Of a DNA stretch of 36,390 nucleotides, positions 4,001 through 23,829 are shown in pieces; within the stretch, counting starts at the first letter, position 1, and each line of letters opens with the position of its first letter. The stretch is from a virus. The notes under the pieces are model-generated. The model searched no databases, was not told the origin of the DNA, and saw only the letters and a list, made by a program, of their open reading frames with translations. The position numbers were made by a program, and so were the translations under genes. Location of the stretch: IMG/VR virus record IMGVR_UViG_3300044955_000080, positions 1 through 36,390 of that record; one strand, written 5' to 3'.

Positions 4001-4741
4001 TTACGGCCCCTGTTCAATTATGTAGGTACCAATACCTTTTCTCTGTGTTGCAACTGCCCTATCCATCCCAAGAACAAGAGATCGGTAATTGTTGCGCTTG
4101 AGCCATTTCTTTTGTTCAACTGCTTGAGTTGCCACAAGTGGAGTTATATCTTTACCCCATTCAGGCGCTAACTCTAAGCATAAATTATAAATAAGGGCTT
4201 TCTCATAACCCGGTGGAAGATTTATTTCATCTGTTAGATTTGCGGTTGGTAGGTATTCCGCTAATGGTTGAACAACTTCTAAATGAAGCGTTTCATCTTG
4301 ATAAGGAACAGATTCAAATAAAATGGTATTTAAAGGCCAACCTTTGCGAAGGTAAAAGCGAGAAGGGCGAGAAATATTAGTTTTTCGGCTAATTCGGTTA
4401 AATGTTTCAACGTCAATAACCTCAAGAATGTAATCAGTTTCGTAAGCGTCACGAATAAAGGCTGATAGTATTCTTTCTGGCCTAGCTGTTTGAATGTGGT
4501 TATCTGGAACAATTTGATCAGGGTAAATACCAATAGTGTATTCAGGCTGACCATTTAAAAGAGTTTTTGTAACAACGCTAACAACTGGAATTAATAATGT
4601 TTCATTACTCCAAGAGTCCACCATTTGAGTGAACACTTCCAAGGCGTCATCACCTTCATTGGCCGGCAACGGCTCGCCAGCCGCAAGAACGCCAATCTTT
4701 CGCATTGACGATCTAATAATATCTTGAACTGTACGAGCCAT
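4001..4741 (-). CDS. Head-to-tail adaptor, P22 gp4-like tail accessory factor
   Basis: A 246-residue protein starting MARTVQDIIRSSMRKIGVLA, followed by EGDDALEVFTQMVDSW, the typical start of the P22 gp4 family. Later motifs include LPPGYEKALIYNLCLELAP, shared by head-tail connector proteins. In P22 gp4 assembles as a 12-mer onto the portal after packaging; P22 gp4 is about 166 residues, so this protein is longer and similar to gp4 homologues in marine phages. It is followed immediately by the gp10-like gene. No muramidase motif is evident. Confidence 0.88.
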   Translation of the reverse strand: MARTVQDIIRSSMRKIGVLAAGEPLPANEGDDALEVFTQMVDSWSNETLLIPVVSVVTKTLLNGQPEYTIGIYPDQIVPDNHIQTARPERILSAFIRDAYETDYILEVIDVETFNRISRKTNISRPSRFYLRKGWPLNTILFESVPYQDETLHLEVVQPLAEYLPTANLTDEINLPPGYEKALIYNLCLELAPEWGKDITPLVATQAVEQKKWLKRNNYRSLVLGMDRAVATQRKGIGTYIIEQGP

Positions 4742-4751
4742 AACTTACACC

Positions 4752-5351
4752 TTACTCAGCGTTTAACGCTTCAGTGATTTTTTCAATCATTGTGTCTTCA
4801 CCCCAATTTGAGCGAAGAGATAAACCAAGTGATTTACCTAATACAATGTGTTCTTCTTTGTTTAATGACTTAGGATCTTCATTGAAACGATCTTGAAGTT
4901 CGTTAAGTTCATCAGCTTCAGCATCAGATTGCTTTAGCCCTCGGCGCTCAGCTTCACCAATCAATGTTTCATCAGAAACATTTTCAAGGTTAAGAGCAAC
5001 AAAACCATCTTCAGTAATACGGCGCTTAAGCTCTTCTTGAAGAGTTTCATCAGTTAGATTTGCCGGGTCAAAAGCAGCTTGAGCCATTTTATTAGCTTCG
5101 CCTTTTAACTGTTCTTGAGTTAAAACGATAAAGCCAAATGATTTAACCATTTCAACTAAATCTTCAGGGCGAGCATTTGTAACTTGCTCTTGTGTCATTC
5201 CAGTGTCGTTATCTTCTGGAAGTTTCAAGCGAGCTGGAGAGTGAACCCAACCTTCCTTTTCTTTTGCTTCAACTTCTTCATCAGAAAGTTTGAACATTTC
5301 ACCCTTAGGGCAATTTTCGTGAAATAAATAAATTAATCTTTTGTTTGACAT
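4752..5351 (-). CDS. Acidic virion-associated protein with HeH/LEM-like C-terminus
   Basis: A 199-residue, strongly acidic protein with no clear enzymatic motif. The C-terminal part (165-196; EEHIVLGKSLGLSLRSNW then EDTMIEKI) has the helix-extended loop-helix pattern of HeH/LEM or SAP-like modules that occur in small phage capsid-associated proteins. Two further segments (TDETLQEELKRRI about 100-112 and SDETLIGEAERRGL about 126-139) repeat a similar pattern, suggesting tandem degenerate LEM-like units. It lies between the coat gene (with a terminator in between) and the gp4-like gene. A role in head maturation or DNA-end contact is only a guess from position. Confidence 0.6.
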   Translation of the reverse strand: MSNKRLIYLFHENCPKGEMFKLSDEEVEAKEKEGWVHSPARLKLPEDNDTGMTQEQVTNARPEDLVEMVKSFGFIVLTQEQLKGEANKMAQAAFDPANLTDETLQEELKRRITEDGFVALNLENVSDETLIGEAERRGLKQSDAEADELNELQDRFNEDPKSLNKEEHIVLGKSLGLSLRSNWGEDTMIEKITEALNAE

Positions 5352-5390
5352 AGTGATTACCTTTTAAAAGTTTATCGAAAGCTTTCACCC

Positions 5391-5419
5391 AAAAAGCCCG
5401 GAACTAAGCCGGGCTTTTT
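5391..5419 (-). terminator. Intrinsic terminator after the coat gene
   Basis: A perfect 11-bp inverted repeat (AAAAAGCCCGG, loop of 7, CCGGGCTTTTT) lies 15 bases beyond the coat stop codon. Read leftward it is a GC stem followed by a T run, an intrinsic terminator; its symmetry makes it possibly bidirectional. It is placed to make coat mRNA more abundant than the downstream tail genes, which then depend on read-through. Confidence 0.88.
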
Positions 5420-5433
5420 ATTAGGTATCAACC

Positions 5434-6690
5434 TTAGGAAGAAGCAGCGCCCCAAAGTCGAAGAGCTAACTCGCCATAAATCAAGTCAGCACCCCAAACG
5501 GCATCAATACGGTGTATTTCCGATTGCTCATTAATATCATAAGCAGCGGTTAACAGTAGAGATAAACCAGTATCAGGATCGGCAGCTCGAGACTTAACAA
5601 CAGCCGATTGAGGAAGCTCTAAATCAATCATTGCTAAAGCAATAGCGTCACGGTGGAACAAGTAGTTTTGTTCGTAAGTCGTGTTAGCTGCGCCAAGAAT
5701 GTTGATTGGAGCATTATCAGCCGGAAGGTTAGTAACATTTTGATAAGCCGCCAAACTAACAGGATCGCCATTCTCATTAGGAATGGTTGCCGTTCCATCA
5801 TTTAAGCTTGGAGAAATCTTAATTGTCCCAGCGCCAATACCATTAGTATTAACGTCTTCAAGAACAACAAACTCTTGAAGTAAACCAGTTGATTCATAGT
5901 TTTGAGGGTTAACACCAAATACACCATCAAAGGTAATAACGTCACCAGCTCTTAAGAAGAATAATGTTGAAGCTGTACCACCATCAAAGTTAACAGTGTC
6001 ACCATTAACAGTTGAAGCGCCTACCAATGGCGTTCCGCCGTGATCACCAACTGTATGCTTAGGTAAGTTCTGAGATTCATAAACCTCATAAGCTGAAACA
6101 TTACCGCGGTAGCCCATTTTATAAGCTTGCTCAACCATACTTTCTTTGAACAACTTAGTAACTTCATCAGATAGAGAAGCACAAGTGAACGGGTCAAGTA
6201 CGGCGTGGCGCATACCATCTTGAGGAACTGCGTAAGTTGTTTGCTTAGCACCAGCGTTAGCAAAATCAATAAACGCACCCGGACGAACACCCGGAGTACC
6301 AGAAGAATGGAAGGCTTTCTTAAGCGTTAATGTTAAAGAGCGGTCTATAGCGTTGGCAATCTGAACCATACCCGATTTTAGATAACGCTCTGAGAACTGA
6401 GTAATATCTAAAGTTTTATCCTTGACAGTGTACTCAAGGCCAACATGCTCTTGATTGTCAATTTTAAATGGAATGGTTTGATCGACCATTGGTCTTTTAA
6501 CCAAAGTTCGACCACTGGCAGATTTAACACGGTAAGGAAGTTTTAATCGAATAGTATCACCAACCTTACCAAAGGTTTTTTCATAGTTACGATAAACACA
6601 CTTAGCCATAACTAAGTTGTTTTTAAGAAGTCGTAACGCTTCTTTTGCAATGACGTCATCCGTCAATAGATTGTTGTCTTGAACAGCCAT
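5434..6690 (-). CDS. Major capsid protein, P22 gp5-like (HK97 fold)
   Basis: 418 residues, close to P22 coat (430). It starts MAVQDNNLLTDDVIAKEALR with VYRNYEKTFGKVGDTIRLKL and PYRV, characteristic of the P22 coat family, and carries a central region (about 210-300) with several Gly/Thr-rich strands that would correspond to the inserted I-domain. A strong AGGAG site precedes the ATG. The order scaffold, then coat, is as in P22. It would form the procapsid shell on the scaffold and expand during packaging. The strong terminator downstream fits high, separately tuned expression. Confidence 0.94.
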   Translation of the reverse strand: MAVQDNNLLTDDVIAKEALRLLKNNLVMAKCVYRNYEKTFGKVGDTIRLKLPYRVKSASGRTLVKRPMVDQTIPFKIDNQEHVGLEYTVKDKTLDITQFSERYLKSGMVQIANAIDRSLTLTLKKAFHSSGTPGVRPGAFIDFANAGAKQTTYAVPQDGMRHAVLDPFTCASLSDEVTKLFKESMVEQAYKMGYRGNVSAYEVYESQNLPKHTVGDHGGTPLVGASTVNGDTVNFDGGTASTLFFLRAGDVITFDGVFGVNPQNYESTGLLQEFVVLEDVNTNGIGAGTIKISPSLNDGTATIPNENGDPVSLAAYQNVTNLPADNAPINILGAANTTYEQNYLFHRDAIALAMIDLELPQSAVVKSRAADPDTGLSLLLTAAYDINEQSEIHRIDAVWGADLIYGELALRLWGAASS

Positions 6691-17554: not shown

Positions 17555-19255
17555 TTAAAGGTAAGTTTTAACTTCGCCAAGGCTAGAATTCAAGTAAGCT
17601 TTAACTTCAGCATAATCTTCTTCACTCAAGCCCCACTCTTCCAAGAAATCAATAAAGCTATTTCTAGCTGCGTGTTTGGTTAAGGCGTACATGAGATTAT
17701 TAAGCTTGTCGTGAGTGCTAACTTGTTGAGCTGTTGCTTGTTCAGTTGTTGTAACTGTCTCACCGTCAATAAACGTATCTTTACTGTTGATTATTACAGG
17801 CTCAGATTTGGCTGTTTTTATTTCCGCTTGTTGCTCAGCTTCTACCTTAGCGCGTTCTTCATCACGAATACGCTTTTCTTCTGCTTCAAGCTTTGCTTTG
17901 GCTTCACGTTCAGCCTTTTCTTTAGCTTCACGCTCAATACGTTCTTGCTCTTGGCGTTTGCGCTCAGCTTCGGCTTGTTCGTGCTCAGCAATACGGGCTT
18001 TGATTAAGTTAACAAGATCATCGTTATCTTTAAGTAATAACATAGCGTGATCACTGAATAAGAATTTATGGTCTTTTGCCAATTCAGTTAAGCTATCTAG
18101 GTTTTTACGGATAACTTGAGCAATCTCGTTAGCTTCAATTTTTGCTTTTGCTAACTCAGAATTAACAGCTTCTTCCATCTTTTCAAAGCTGCGCTTGCCT
18201 TTCATCACCGCTTCAAAATCAATCACGATTTGAGTGATCTGAACCTTGTTGATAGTTTCGCTTAACTCGGCCAAGTGCTTGTTAAATTCAGCTCGAGCAT
18301 TGTTAACGATTGAAAGCTTCTTAGTTGCCTTTGCTTCCTTGACTTGCTTTTCACCGTGAGATTGAAGCTTTTGAAGGATAGTATCAGCTTGCTTAACGTA
18401 ACCATTGAATTCAGCAAGGCTTTCAAATTGCTTTTCAATATCGGTAGCTTGAGTTTTAAGCGTTGCCCGGCCAGCTTTAACATTTTTGTTGAAAGCTTCT
18501 TTGTCAGCAAAGTCTTGATCAGTCTCAAGAATCAAGCTCATTTGCTCGTCAGCTAACTTTTGAATGACCGGGATATATTCACCTAAGTTAGAAACAACCG
18601 TTGAACCTTCAACGCTACACTGGATAAGAGGAAAACTATCTTGTTTGCGAGCAACAATAACTTCTTGCTTGGCTTTTACTTCATGGTCTTCAAAGTCTTT
18701 CTTGAATTCATGCCAGCCAGCAATTAATTTGCTTCGGCGTTCTGGTTGTGAAGTGTAATACATCATTTCACGATTAACGCCAGTTCCATCAGATACAACA
18801 AACAAAGCACGTTCAGCGCCAGCAACTAATAATTGTTGCTCAAGCTGCCAATAGTAAGTTGGTTCTAAAACCTGATTGCGAACATTTTCAGCAAGCGTTT
18901 CATTCCAAAGCTTGTGCTCAAAAATTGTTTTATGATCTTCGCTAATACCATCAAGGGAAGCTAAAAGCGGCAAACCTTCAACCTCTAAAGTGGCAACTAT
19001 TGGTTCAAATGACTCAGCGGTTTCAAACTCAAGTAAAGAACGAGCTTTATCTTCTGTTTCATGGCCTTTGTCAAAAAGCTTCTGAAGGTGATCAGATACC
19101 TTTTCTTTAACGCCTTTTTTCTCATTCATTAAAGCGGTACGGCCTTTGTACTTGCTTTCGCCCATCATTGCCGGGGCTTCACTTGCTGTAAAATGATTGG
19201 CGCGTAACTCATGCCATACTTCAGAACCTTGGACGATATTTTCATGTATTTTCAT
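17555..19255 (-). CDS. YqaJ-family recombination exonuclease with long coiled-coil extension
   Basis: 566 residues. Residues 1-215 form a YqaJ/lambda-exonuclease nuclease: GSEVWHELRANHFTASEAP (10-28), KGHETEDKAR (63-72), Asp102 in ASLDGIS, Glu113 and Lys115 in IFEHKLW, and PTYYWQLEQQLL. Such enzymes degrade the 5' strand to load an annealing protein, here ERF directly upstream. Residues 220-420 form a coiled coil resembling the phage DUF1351-type partner, and about 420-480 is a charged helix (EAERKRQEQERIEREAKEKA). The nuclease alone would be about 200-300 residues, so this is a fusion. AGGA lies before the ATG. Confidence 0.9.
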   Translation of the reverse strand: MKIHENIVQGSEVWHELRANHFTASEAPAMMGESKYKGRTALMNEKKGVKEKVSDHLQKLFDKGHETEDKARSLLEFETAESFEPIVATLEVEGLPLLASLDGISEDHKTIFEHKLWNETLAENVRNQVLEPTYYWQLEQQLLVAGAERALFVVSDGTGVNREMMYYTSQPERRSKLIAGWHEFKKDFEDHEVKAKQEVIVARKQDSFPLIQCSVEGSTVVSNLGEYIPVIQKLADEQMSLILETDQDFADKEAFNKNVKAGRATLKTQATDIEKQFESLAEFNGYVKQADTILQKLQSHGEKQVKEAKATKKLSIVNNARAEFNKHLAELSETINKVQITQIVIDFEAVMKGKRSFEKMEEAVNSELAKAKIEANEIAQVIRKNLDSLTELAKDHKFLFSDHAMLLLKDNDDLVNLIKARIAEHEQAEAERKRQEQERIEREAKEKAEREAKAKLEAEEKRIRDEERAKVEAEQQAEIKTAKSEPVIINSKDTFIDGETVTTTEQATAQQVSTHDKLNNLMYALTKHAARNSFIDFLEEWGLSEEDYAEVKAYLNSSLGEVKTYL

Positions 19256-19256
19256 G

Positions 19257-20000
19257 TTATGCGTTTCCTACTTTTTCAATGGTTAATAATTGTTGTTGTG
19301 AAAAGGTGATACCTTGAGCATTACCAGCCTTGATAATCTGATCAGGAGTTTTCTTGCCTGATAGAATTGCTTTTTCCCAATTTGGGAAGTTTTTCTTAAA
19401 CTCTTCATCAGAATAACAAGCTGATTCATCAACGGCTTCTTCATGGTTGCCGCCATCATCATCTTCACCACCAACGACAATACCCAAGCTACCAGTTAGC
19501 GTATAACGCCTTAGATAGCTAATAGCTGAAGCGATTGCTTTAAGTGGGTCCTTGCCGCCACTAACGTCAGGTTGAGAGGTTAACTCGCTAACTTCACTAT
19601 GACCACTGGCATGAGTAACGATACAAGTAACAGTGATCCAACCTTGATTTTGTGTTTGACTGAAGCGATAAGATAACCCGGTTTCTTTTAGCGCCGGGCG
19701 AATTGCCTTAGCAATATCTTCAAGCTTGGCGTAATCGTAGTAAGTACGACCTTTGTTAGTTGTGTAATCAACAATGCCTGATTTTTCAATCGTTGGTAAA
19801 AGACTTTGAAACTTTGACATTGCTTCGTTGAAGTCTTTTTTGGCTTGATTGGCTTCGTAGCGTTCTTGAAGATCCATAAGCTTTTCAAGTTGAGTAATAT
19901 CAGCGCCTTTTTCAACGGCGATTTCAATCAATCTCATGTGAGGCTGAGCCATTACAGGTAATGAGCTTTGTTCTTGTGTAACTAATTCTGAATTACTCAC
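19257..20000 (-). CDS. erf: ERF-family single-strand annealing recombinase
   Basis: 247 residues starting at GTG (20000) with GAGG 8 nt upstream. The ERF core spans about 20-165: YEANQAKKDFNEAMSKFQSL, GRTYYDYAKLEDIAKAIRPA, LKETGLSYRFSQTQ and ITVTCIVTHASGHSE, and KDPLKAIASAISYLRRYTLT. P22 Erf anneals complementary strands and circularises the terminally redundant genome after injection, which suits the circular map here. The C-terminal part (about 185-247) is the variable domain. It overlaps the end of the preceding 86-aa gene by 8 bases and precedes the YqaJ exonuclease, forming a two-component recombination system. Confidence 0.93.
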   Translation of the reverse strand: MSNSELVTQEQSSLPVMAQPHMRLIEIAVEKGADITQLEKLMDLQERYEANQAKKDFNEAMSKFQSLLPTIEKSGIVDYTTNKGRTYYDYAKLEDIAKAIRPALKETGLSYRFSQTQNQGWITVTCIVTHASGHSEVSELTSQPDVSGGKDPLKAIASAISYLRRYTLTGSLGIVVGGEDDDGGNHEEAVDESACYSDEEFKKNFPNWEKAILSGKKTPDQIIKAGNAQGITFSQQQLLTIEKVGNA

Positions 20001-20602: not shown

Positions 20603-20803
20603 ATGAGCACAAGCAAAGCTATCAAGATAGCAATGGTTCAAAAAGAAATTAACCAGAAGGAGCTTGCTGAGCTTTCTGGTGTTAGTGAAACAACGATTTC
20701 ACACACGCTTTCAGGCAAAACAAGCCCGAACACTAAAACGCTTTCACGATTGGCTAAAGCCATGAGTATGAGTTACTCGGAATTAATCAAATTAGGTGAG
20801 TGA
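20603..20803 (+). CDS. Cro-like HTH (XRE) regulator
   Basis: 66 residues from the ATG at 20603 (AAAAGG upstream); a longer frame from 20534 would overlap the promoter. The whole protein is one XRE helix-turn-helix domain: INQKELAELSGVSETTISHT (17-36) is the HTH, followed by LSGKTSPNTKTLSRLAKAMS. It lacks any oligomerisation or cleavage domain like CI. It probably binds operators in the divergent promoter region to regulate both early operons. It is the first rightward gene and ends in overlap with the replication gene region. Confidence 0.85.
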   Translation: MSTSKAIKIAMVQKEINQKELAELSGVSETTISHTLSGKTSPNTKTLSRLAKAMSMSYSELIKLGE

Positions 20804-20805
20804 TC

Positions 20806-21546
20806 ATGAATCGCAATAAAAAATCATTTTTGTTGCATATTGATAGCTTAGATATTCTTGATGAATTAACCGATGAACAAGCCGGAAAATTATTTAAGGC
20901 TATAAAAGCTTATCAAAAGCAAGAAGAAGTAGAGCTTGATAGTTTTGTTCGTATCGCGTTCTCACCATTTAAAAACCAATTCATTAGAGATAATGAAAAG
21001 TATGATCTTACCTGTAAACGTAGGGCTGAAGCTGGCCGCAAGGGTGGCGAAGCAAAATCAGCTAAAGCTAGCAAACCTAAGCAAGAGTTAGCAAATGCTA
21101 GCAATTGCCAGCAAGAGTTAGCAAACGTAGCAGATAATAAGAATAAGAATAAAACAAAGAATAAGAGTGATAGTGATAGTAAGAGTGAAATAACTACTAC
21201 GCCAGCTAAAGCTAACCTTTCCTTTGATTTGTTCAAATACTGGTGTGACGTTATGGGTAAAAACCTTTCAACCAGCAAGCTTACACCTAAGCGTGATAAA
21301 GCTATCAAGGCCCGGTTAAAAGAAGGTTATACCTTTGAGCAAATTAAAGCAGCTATTGACGGTTGCCGTAATGATCCTTTCTCAATGGGTCACAACGACA
21401 GACAAAAGCCGTTTAATGATATTGAGCTTATTTGTCGAACTGGTGAAAAGCTTGAAAGCTTTATTCAAACTCAAGTTGAACCGCGACAATTTACCGCATC
21501 AACTGAGCGAACTATTAATATGTTACAAGACTTGGAGTTGAAGTAA
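20806..21546 (+). CDS. O-like replication initiation protein (DUF6291 N-terminus)
   Basis: 246 residues from the ATG at 20806 with AGGTGAG upstream; a GTG at 20800 overlapping the previous stop would add two residues. Residues 1-75 resemble DUF6291 (FLLHIDSLDILDELTDEQAG then KLFKAIKAYQ), a winged-helix-like N-terminus of phage replication proteins. A Lys/Ser/Ala/Asn-rich linker (about 80-130) leads to a C-terminal helical domain (LTPKRDKAIKARLKEG, IKAAIDGCRNDPFSMGHNDR). The linker DNA holds the iteron-like array. Position after a Cro-like gene and before a loader-like gene is as in lambda O and P. Confidence 0.78.
   Translation: MNRNKKSFLLHIDSLDILDELTDEQAGKLFKAIKAYQKQEEVELDSFVRIAFSPFKNQFIRDNEKYDLTCKRRAEAGRKGGEAKSAKASKPKQELANASNCQQELANVADNKNKNKTKNKSDSDSKSEITTTPAKANLSFDLFKYWCDVMGKNLSTSKLTPKRDKAIKARLKEGYTFEQIKAAIDGCRNDPFSMGHNDRQKPFNDIELICRTGEKLESFIQTQVEPRQFTASTERTINMLQDLELK
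21060..21200 (+). other. Candidate replication origin: 10-bp-periodic AGCAA array plus AT/purine-rich tract
   Basis: AGCAA begins at 21070, 21080, 21090, 21100, 21110 and 21120, a strict 10-base period over six copies, with a near copy at 21060 (AGCTA). Four of them are in TAGCAA context, and GCAAGAGTTAGCAAA occurs twice, 30 bases apart. Immediately downstream (about 21128-21200) the top strand is AT-rich and almost all purine with AATAAG repeats. Iterons inside the initiator gene next to an AT-rich purine-skewed tract is the lambda-O origin plan. Confidence 0.6.
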
Positions 21547-22142
21547 TGACTGAGAATGATGGAAATAAGTTTAAGGAACTAATCACCGCTATCAATGTGA
21601 CTTACGGTGAAGAGTTCACTCAACCTCAAACGCTACTTTGGTGGAATATGTTTAAGCCATATCCTATTGAAGCATTTGAACAAGCTGTTTACCAGCATAT
21701 GGCTGATCCTGATCAGGGTATGTTTTCACCTAAGCCAGCCAACATAATGAAGTTTATCACTGGCACCACTAAGCAGAACGAACAGGCACTTGAAGATAAA
21801 GCTGAACTTGCTTGGCACGTTATTGAAGGTGAGATTCGCCGTATTGGTTCTTATGGCTCATTAAAAATGGAAGACAAGCAAGCGTTAGCGGCTGTTCAAG
21901 CTCTTGGTGGTTGGAAGCATCTTTGTTCATTAACTACCGATCAAATGGTTTGGGCGCATAAAGAATTTATTGCGGCCTACCAGAATTATGAGCGTACACC
22001 AGTTGAAGCTTTGCCTGATAAATTGCCGGGTAGAGTAGCTTTAGAAAACCACAAGGCTGAGCAATCGCAAGGCTTAAAACATATAACCGATGGCATTCAA
22101 AACTATCGCAACAGAAAAGGAATAGAGAATAATGGCGAGTAA
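21546..22142 (+). CDS. Putative helicase loader / replication protein P-like
   Basis: 198 residues. The N-terminal region (FTQPQTLLWWNMFKPYPIEA, FEQAVYQHMADPDQGMFSPK then PANIMKFI) has the pattern of phage proteins that follow an O-like initiator (DUF6475-like), with FxPKPADI typical of them. The C-terminal part is basic and helical. The ATG overlaps the previous stop (TAATG), so the two are translated together. A lambda P role, delivering host DnaB to the phage origin, is inferred from order and not proved by motif. Confidence 0.65.
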   Translation: MTENDGNKFKELITAINVTYGEEFTQPQTLLWWNMFKPYPIEAFEQAVYQHMADPDQGMFSPKPANIMKFITGTTKQNEQALEDKAELAWHVIEGEIRRIGSYGSLKMEDKQALAAVQALGGWKHLCSLTTDQMVWAHKEFIAAYQNYERTPVEALPDKLPGRVALENHKAEQSQGLKHITDGIQNYRNRKGIENNGE

Positions 22143-22686
22143 GCAACCAAACGATATTATCAGTTCAGACCTTGACTCTGATATGAAAAATAGTTGGGGT
22201 ACTGATCCTGTAATTTTTGAGGCAATGAACAAAGAATTCAACTTTGCTCTTGATGCGGCGGCAAATGACAGCAATCACAAATGTTCGTTTTATTTCACCA
22301 AAGAAGATAACGCGCTTGAAATTGATTGGTCACATCATCTTGAAGATTATGGCATGCGCCCGGTATGGATTAACCCACCTTACGGGAAAGGCTTTATCAA
22401 GGAATTTATGAACAAGTGTATTGAGCAAAAAGAAAAAGGCGTTACTTCTGTTCTTCTTGTTCCGGCTACGCTTGACGCTCAATGGCTGCCTATCAATGAA
22501 ATATCTGAGATCAGAATTGTAACTGGTGGAAGGCTTAGTTTTTATCACCCGATTAGTGGGAAAAAGGTTAACGGTAATACTAAAGGGTCAATGTTTGTTA
22601 TATTCAGGCCGTCAAAAATGCCTTGTGTTGTTCGTATGATTGATAGAAATGAATTATTGGAGATAGGAAAATGTCAGCAAGCTTAA
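22132..22686 (+). CDS. dam: Phage Dam-type N6-adenine DNA methyltransferase
   Basis: 184 residues of the phage N-6-adenine methyltransferase (Dam) family: SWGTDPVIFEAMNKEFNFAL (21-40) and DAAAND, which form the SAM-binding part, and the catalytic WINPPYGKGF (NPPY at 81-84), then LLVPATLDAQW. It would methylate adenine, probably in GATC, protecting phage DNA from host restriction or modulating replication or packaging. It overlaps the loader-like gene by 11 bases. The phage carries a second methyltransferase-like domain within its giant virion protein. Confidence 0.93.
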   Translation: MASKQPNDIISSDLDSDMKNSWGTDPVIFEAMNKEFNFALDAAANDSNHKCSFYFTKEDNALEIDWSHHLEDYGMRPVWINPPYGKGFIKEFMNKCIEQKEKGVTSVLLVPATLDAQWLPINEISEIRIVTGGRLSFYHPISGKKVNGNTKGSMFVIFRPSKMPCVVRMIDRNELLEIGKCQQA

Positions 22687-22904
22687 GTTGGGTACCTAAA
22701 CCAGAAAGGGAAGAAAACTTTTTTGGCCGAGGGTCAAGTTTAGAAAAAGCGATCAGTGAAACATTTGGCGCTTTACCTGTAACGCTAAACCATGATCACA
22801 TTGAAAAGTTAGAGGTTATTAAAAATTGTGGTTATGAAGATATTAACGAAGTTATCAACGCTATTTATAAATATGGTCGCGTTGAAATTAACAGTCATTA
22901 CTAA
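22671..22904 (+). CDS. Hypothetical protein (77 aa)
   Basis: A 77-residue protein (MSASLSWVPKPEREENFFGR start; C-terminal VIKNCGYEDINEVINAIYKY). It overlaps the dam end by 16 bases, with AGG just upstream. No motif recognised and no membrane segment. The helical C-terminus could mediate an interaction. Function unassigned. Confidence 0.6.
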   Translation: MSASLSWVPKPEREENFFGRGSSLEKAISETFGALPVTLNHDHIEKLEVIKNCGYEDINEVINAIYKYGRVEINSHY

Positions 22905-22936
22905 ATAAAAAACCGCTAACCAATTAAGACTAGCGG
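22905..22936 (-). terminator. Leftward (antisense) intrinsic terminator within the early operon
   Basis: CCGCTA (22913-22918) pairs with TAGCGG (22931-22936) across a 12-base loop. On the minus strand the stem is followed by TTTTTTATTTAG, a normal terminator tail. On the plus strand it has no T run, so the rightward operon would pass. It would stop leftward transcription entering from the tailspike side before it crosses the replication genes. Confidence 0.6.
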
Positions 22937-22982
22937 CTACAACATGAAAATACTACGTCCAAGCAGCATAGGAACTATAGCA

Positions 22983-23249
22983 ATGAACACTGAAAAAATC
23001 TATTTAGAATTTGAAAGTAAAGAATTTGAATGTGAGGTTAGTTTTAACTTCACCAAAGGCGAACCAAGAATAACGCATCTTTTGCCAGAGGATTGTTGCG
23101 AAGGCTCACCAGATGAATATGAAATAACTGAGTTATACATTCATTTAGAATCAAAGCGCCTTGGCGTTGAAGCTCACGATATTGGATTTCTTATTGACTC
23201 GCTTAGCGAAGAGATAATTGAGCAACTTGAGGAAATTCGCAATGGCTGA
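22983..23249 (+). CDS. Hypothetical acidic protein (88 aa)
   Basis: 88 residues from the ATG at 22983 (TAGGA 9 nt upstream); an earlier ATG at 22944 would add 13 residues but has a weaker site and lies next to the hairpin. Very acidic (KIYLEFESKEFECEV at start, SEEIIEQLEEIRNG at end). Two adjacent Cys (EDCCEG). No motif recognised; acidic small early proteins sometimes mimic DNA or bind host enzymes, but that is not supported here. Confidence 0.6.
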   Translation: MNTEKIYLEFESKEFECEVSFNFTKGEPRITHLLPEDCCEGSPDEYEITELYIHLESKRLGVEAHDIGFLIDSLSEEIIEQLEEIRNG

Positions 23250-23829
23250 ATTATCTTTTATAAAAACCAATGTTGGCCTAATTCCTCACACTGAGCACGA
23301 CAAAGAAACTTTCAATAAATGGAAGCTTGGCGCTGTTATCGTTGGAAACTTTAAGCAGATCAGGAACCCAAGGTTTCACAAGAAGTTTTTCGCTCTATTG
23401 AACTTAACTTTTGATTATTATGAACCTTCAAGTGGCGTATTAACGGCAGATGAAAAGCGCATTGCCACAAAAATTTTTATGACGCTTGATAATCATAATA
23501 ACAAAAATGGTTTCTTTATCGACTTTGGGCGCGAGTTTATGAGAGCTGAAAGCGAAGAGCGCCGGGCGACTATTGAAAGCATTGAAAAGGCTTTTGAACC
23601 TTTCCGTAAATGGCTAACTATTGAAGCTGGCTTTTATGATGAAATACCCGTACCCGGTGGAGTAGTCAAAGAAGCTAAATCAATAAGCTTTGCCAAAATG
23701 GACGAAATTGAATTTAGCCAGTTGTACAAAGCTGTTTTTGATGTTTGCTGGCGTTTTGTTCTTAGTCGCGTTTTCAAGAGCGAACATGAAGCAGAAGAGG
23801 CGGCAATTGCTTTGCTGAATTTCAATTGA
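23242..23829 (+). CDS. DUF1367 family protein
   Basis: 195 residues from the ATG at 23242 (GAGG upstream, overlap with the previous stop). It has the DUF1367 pattern: MAELSFIKTNVGLIPHTEHD, WKLGAVIVGNFKQIRNPRFH then KKFFALLNLTFDYYE, and FAKMDEIEFSQLYKAVFDVC with WRFVL near the C-terminus. The family occurs in lambdoid and related phages in the nin-like region beside NinG; its function is not established, though recombination or replication help is usually suggested. Confidence 0.88.
   Translation: MAELSFIKTNVGLIPHTEHDKETFNKWKLGAVIVGNFKQIRNPRFHKKFFALLNLTFDYYEPSSGVLTADEKRIATKIFMTLDNHNNKNGFFIDFGREFMRAESEERRATIESIEKAFEPFRKWLTIEAGFYDEIPVPGGVVKEAKSISFAKMDEIEFSQLYKAVFDVCWRFVLSRVFKSEHEAEEAAIALLNFN

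Follow-up and report, generated by a model that had tools for sequence, protein, structure and literature searches.

The IMG/VR virus record IMGVR_UViG_3300044955_000080 (positions 1-36,390; this whole stretch of 36,390 nt is termed the window) encodes on its forward strand a replication initiator gene with a run of short direct repeats inside its coding sequence. The gene combines an N-terminal DUF6291 domain (a domain of unknown function), a linker specified in part by the repeats, and a C-terminal domain resembling those of O-like initiators. Comparison with related phages suggests that the array is very probably where the gene's own protein binds to start genome copying. The features of the locus are:

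20603..20803, +: gene for a regulator of the Cro/C1 helix-turn-helix (HTH) type, lying upstream of the initiator (HTH_3, E 4.9e-12)
20806..21546, +: initiator gene, with DUF6291 N-terminus, linker and O/Phg_2220_C-like C-terminus (PF19808, E 1.6e-24; phrog_16167, phrog_18020)
20824..21003, +: DUF6291 core (Pfam profile match; the PF19808 match extends to 21057)
21004..21048, +: 15-residue candidate recognition segment DLTCKRRAEAGRKGG, with the +7 Arg codon at 21022-21024 and the +10 Ala codon at 21031-21033 (residue-motif association)
21060..21133, +: iteron array, with degenerate AGCTA at 21060, six AGCAA at 21070-21124 and AGCAG at 21129
21128..21200, +: easily melted tract, rich in purines, poor in C and phased at 3 nt, a candidate unwinding element (stability, purine rank, codon choice in relatives)
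21203..21543, +: C-terminal domain, swapped as a unit with the P-like gene (DNA identity to phage BA3)
21546..22142, +: P-like gene, a probable helicase loader (DUF6475; phrog_10105, E 8.8e-72; weak match to the helicase-loader family phrog_2289, E 9e-5)

The array and the adjoining tract

The array is characterized by six copies of AGCAA at an exact 10-bp step, starting at 21070, 21080, 21090, 21100, 21110 and 21120 (span 21070-21124). It is flanked by an in-phase degenerate AGCTA and by the terminal AGCAG; an extra AGCAA at 21051 is out of phase with it. When 5-mers were scanned across the window at periods of 7-30 bp, AGCAA was the sole word with at least four copies at a fixed period. Further, recoding of the array peptide with the phage's own codon usage produced a six-copy run in 3 of 200,000 trials. 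The coordinates, the scan and the recoding together bear out the exactly spaced array that a sequence-only reading had pointed to within the initiator gene. Its further claim, that all copies face the same side of the helix, stands in approximate form: the 10.0-bp step is slightly less than one turn of B-DNA, placing the copies on roughly one face, with a drift of about 17 degrees per copy.

The adjoining tract (21128-21200) falls by stability in the lowest 0.1% of the window's 50- and 70-bp stretches, and 60 nt within it contain 47 purines, the maximum for the whole window; the AT-rich, purine-biased character earlier ascribed to the roughly 70 adjacent bases is thus confirmed by rank. Direct repeats within the initiator gene and an AT-rich, easily melted tract next to them are both elements of the lambda-type intragenic origin architecture. 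GC skew was discarded as origin evidence: it changes sign near 21 kb, just where gene direction switches.

The repeats are constrained as DNA and not by coding. The 10-nt period cycles the word through the three reading frames, where it is read as KQ, AN and SK. Across 48 nonredundant genes, 173 AGCAA pairs at +10 are observed; synonymous recoding gives an expectation of 6.3 ± 2.8, and none of the 300 trials exceeded 15. The TGA-recoded phage L166 keeps six AGCAA copies in its gene (gene region 5186-5878); TGA as Gly in the recoded phages fits the conserved GG of the recognition segment and is code 25-like. In two related phages, L143 and L197, the initiator gene has one in-frame TGA and no array, and an AGCAA array is found outside it, between the integrase and the initiator, beside an AT-rich stretch. 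In L163, both an array and a trinucleotide tract occur where there is no long open reading frame (ORF). The comparison with relatives that the sequence-only reading had proposed therefore came out in its favour, the periodic repeat being retained beyond coding need; the contrary case it had named, namely the same linker peptide without a periodic repeat, was not found among them. As a separate observation, L251 and L252 (around 1500-1900) have in-frame TGA codons of the code 25-like type and an array outside the gene.

The codons of the tract are likewise biased at the DNA level. In the AGCAA genes, Ser is encoded by AGT in 149/159 cases in the tract versus 73/431 elsewhere, Asn by AAT in 139/141 versus 239/435, Asp by GAT in 150/160 versus 306/491, and Lys by AAG in 101/142 versus 231/753. 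Since AAG is less AT-rich than AAA, low stability alone is insufficient to account for this choice.

Repeat classes, the upstream segment and modularity

To survey the distribution of such arrays, 2.9 million viral contigs were searched at the DNA level only for AGCAA occurring five times at 10-bp steps, with the reversed motif as a control: 114 stretches were recovered versus 16 for the control. A DUF6291-type N-terminus is present in the array ORF of at least 54 of the 80 AGCAA loci fetched; PF19808 is matched within seven of the nine records whose arrays were not so assigned, in six of them above the Pfam cut-off. The array, in short, belongs to DUF6291 genes. Matches unrelated to DUF6291 are simple repeats in L137, L155 and L200. 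Non-coding AGATTTAGCAAGATTTAGCAA arrays were also seen near contig ends in L142, L152, L156, L162, L183, L186, L206 and L207, and are apparently unrelated to DUF6291 genes. One genome, represented by L185 (with a reverse-strand array at 4695) and L257, has two AGCAA arrays, one of four copies within the initiator gene and another at a different site.

The linkers of DUF6291 proteins fall into three classes by repeat word, AGCAA, AACCC and TACCA/TGGTA, each near a 10-bp step, and the C-poor tract is common to all three. There are 22 AACCC pairs at +10 versus 0.8 expected under synonymous recoding, and 43 TACCA/TGGTA copies versus 6.7. A separate DNA scan for AACCC arrays returned mostly simple repeats and DUF6291-like genes, the matches outside the latter being mostly simple repeats. 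Each class has isolated representatives: Vibrio phage D478 (OZ196413) for AGCAA, its seven copies all exactly in phase; 199E37-1 and PS_L5 for AACCC; and BT-1011 for TACCA. In isolated phages with an array, the neighbours are replication genes (P-like, DnaC/I loader, P-loop NTPase).

Other repeats were noted in genes with different N-termini. DUF1376-like initiators with the same C-terminus (L006, L007, L008, L009, L011) have AACCAAG/AACCATT at a non-codon 7-bp step in their linker (peptide NQEPLTTNQEP), some 100 bases ahead of the FKYW/FQYW codons, and AACCCA/CGGTT repeats farther upstream. In L323 and L324, an ORF with a different N-terminal domain has 10-bp AACCC repeats on the strand opposite the gene.

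The repeat word is tracked by the short segment encoded just upstream of the array. Excess information on the motif amounts to 0.417 bits per position in these 15 residues versus 0.044 in the DUF6291 core. The +7 residue is Arg in 50/51 AGCAA genes and Asn in all 22 AACCC and all 12 TACCA genes; +10 is Ala in 43/51, Asn in 22/22 and Ile in 10/12, respectively. ORFs picked by the DNA pattern alone agree: +7 is Arg in 58 of 59 AGCAA ORFs, and in all 18 AACCC ORFs +10 is Asn and +7 is Asn, Gln or Ser. Both codons lie 5' of the array, outside the residues that it encodes. From these associations, the word that the initiator reads appears to be specified by a single residue adjacent to the repeats.

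The gene is modular. Thalassomonas phage BA3 is 95.8% identical at the DNA level over 21203-22135, a stretch that takes in the C-terminal domain and almost the entire P-like gene; before 21203 it is unrelated, with a different N-terminal domain and different repeats. L005 shares the C-terminus at 74%, yet has TACCA repeats. As both share the C-terminus but carry other repeats, the motif is not tied to it. Nor does the motif follow the whole DUF6291 domain: in a tree of the DUF6291 core, built on few columns and with many weak forks, the classes interleave, with 26 changes against a minimum possible of 3 and a shuffled mean of 38. Sequence comparison thus finds the array and tract separable from the C-terminal/P module. 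The variation of the motif among relatives, its tracking of a short upstream segment and this separability all go beyond what the sequence-only reading had seen.

The proposed origin and competing explanations

The initiator scores 86.3 bits against PF19808, for which the Pfam gathering cut-off is 27.2, and is thereby a member of the DUF6291 family. It also matches phrog_16167 ('replication initiation protein') and phrog_18020 ('O-like'), the latter covering the C-terminal half; the Pfam search gave DUF6291 and a weak Phg_2220_C match only, with no match to the lambda O family. In an AlphaFold2 model (mean predicted local distance difference test score, pLDDT, 68), the N-terminal domain is helical and closes with a long helix (residues 45-86, numbered from base 20809); the linker that holds the array (89-133) is disordered, and the C-terminal part is again helical. 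A fold search with this model and a profile search of PDB sequences gave no usable PDB relative. The predicted disorder agrees with the earlier suggestion that the array encodes just a flexible linker for which coding does not require the repeat. The wider layout is lambdoid-like: leftward (17555-20000, -) lie genes for a RecE-like exonuclease and an Erf annealing protein, and rightward (22132-23829, +) a gene for a NinB-like protein and an ORF whose product looks, on inspection by eye, like a DNA adenine methylase.

We infer binding, melting, helicase loading and origin function from the array, the tract, their conservation as DNA, the modularity and the residue-motif association. With considerable confidence, we propose that the array is the initiator-binding half of a lambda-type intragenic phage origin, made up of helix-phased mini-iterons in a portable specificity cassette. 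One initiator protomer would occupy each 10-bp unit, about one helix turn, such that the protomers are aligned along one DNA face. Reading of the unit would fall to the segment that closes the long DUF6291 helix, with Arg at +7 specifying AGCAA, Asn or Gln AACCC, and Asn TACCA. The aligned protomers may then strain and open the adjoining purine tract, and the C-terminal domain and the P-like protein would load the host helicase. Reader, site and tract, being adjacent in the DNA, could pass between phages as a unit, with neither the DUF6291 core nor the C-terminal/P module having to follow. The narrower claim, that the 15-residue segment reads the helix-phased 5-mers, with +7 largely setting specificity, and that the contiguity of reader, site and tract makes origin specificity swappable as a small cassette with the core and the helicase-recruiting module untouched, we regard as evenly poised.

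Several points weigh against this proposal. The Phg_2220_C match of the C-terminal domain falls below the Pfam cut-off; the best match of the P-like protein, phrog_10105, is of unknown function, and the helicase-loader match is far weaker; the fold of the initiator, including the recognition segment, rests on one AlphaFold2 model of the above pLDDT; and the segment-array association could be joint inheritance of adjacent DNA, with just two independent contrasts on well-supported branches. This last point feeds an explanation that we consider a real possibility: that the array does bind the initiator, with the residue-motif link reflecting hitchhiking and specificity residing elsewhere, e.g. 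in the DUF6291 core or the linker. The segment adjoins the array and each motif class may have a single origin. However, few residues are near-invariant across 50 AGCAA-class N-termini whose identity to the window goes as low as 26%, and the +7 Arg and the glycines that follow it belong to this small set; core residues are poor discriminators of the classes; and Asn, Gln and Ser interchange at +7 in AACCC genes only.

That another protein binds the array, as an operator or as a bent-DNA element of phased A-tracts that controls early transcription or DNA folding, is improbable. A Cro-like regulator is encoded next door, and the A/T-tract phase amplitude in the array is at the 97.9th percentile of the window at 10.0 bp; yet this rank drops to the 82nd percentile at a period of 10.5, the identity of the motif is conserved beyond A-tracts and changes with the initiator's own segment, and the array accompanies the DUF6291 gene through many C-terminal contexts. 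We give hardly any credence to the repeat being a functionless by-product of a conserved low-complexity linker: the linker is simple in composition and disordered, and those of other initiator families are likewise repetitive, but 10 bp is not a multiple of three, so that one DNA word recurs in three frames, synonymous recoding destroys the pairs, and the array persists in a recoded phage and in non-coding DNA.

Relation to known systems and significance

The proposed origin resembles those of lambda and the Stx phages, in which iterons and an AT-rich tract within the initiator gene make up the origin (PMC7466680): mid-gene direct repeats, an adjoining AT-rich tract, a P-like gene next and an N-terminal side that goes with the iterons are shared. 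The lambda-like plan, with a differing period and motif, that the sequence-only reading had suggested is supported by the O-like gene, the easily melted tract, the linker predicted to be disordered and the P-like neighbour. Unlike lambda, with its longer iterons, the repeats here are 5-mers at a 10-bp step, the protein is of the DUF6291 family, the motif comes in three classes, between which a candidate residue switch may select, and the tract is 3-nt phased and C-poor.

In PLE satellites, the DNA-binding domain of the RepA_N initiator covaries with the origin and is exchanged with it, while the C-terminal domain is conserved (PMC8263062). This is comparable to the modularity reported here; the PLE iterons, however, are three semi-palindromic repeats of ~30 bp and are intergenic. 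As in the bacterial oriC with its DnaA box and DnaA-trio (PMC10797057), candidate double-strand binding sites stand beside a three-nucleotide unit that recurs where the strands would open. The tract trinucleotides TAG, TGA, TAA and GAG, judged by eye, fit the DnaA-trio consensus 3'-(G/A)AT-5' partially; the phasing and C avoidance are real, and with this partial fit the tract was not assigned to the DnaA-trios.

The open-access literature that was searched yielded no prior description of such arrays and no mention of DUF6291. As far as that literature goes, the candidate novelties are the role of DUF6291, the three classes of helix-phased 5-mer arrays, the DNA-level constraint on the tract and a possible single-residue switch within a contiguous reader-site-tract cassette. 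These observations propose a function for DUF6291 and would make sequence by itself enough to find the origins of many phages, both environmental and isolated. The general problem of joint shifts in specificity by an initiator and its origin may be reduced to a 15-residue swap with a single-residue prediction. The scheme also suggests which phages would compete for, or ignore, one another's origins.
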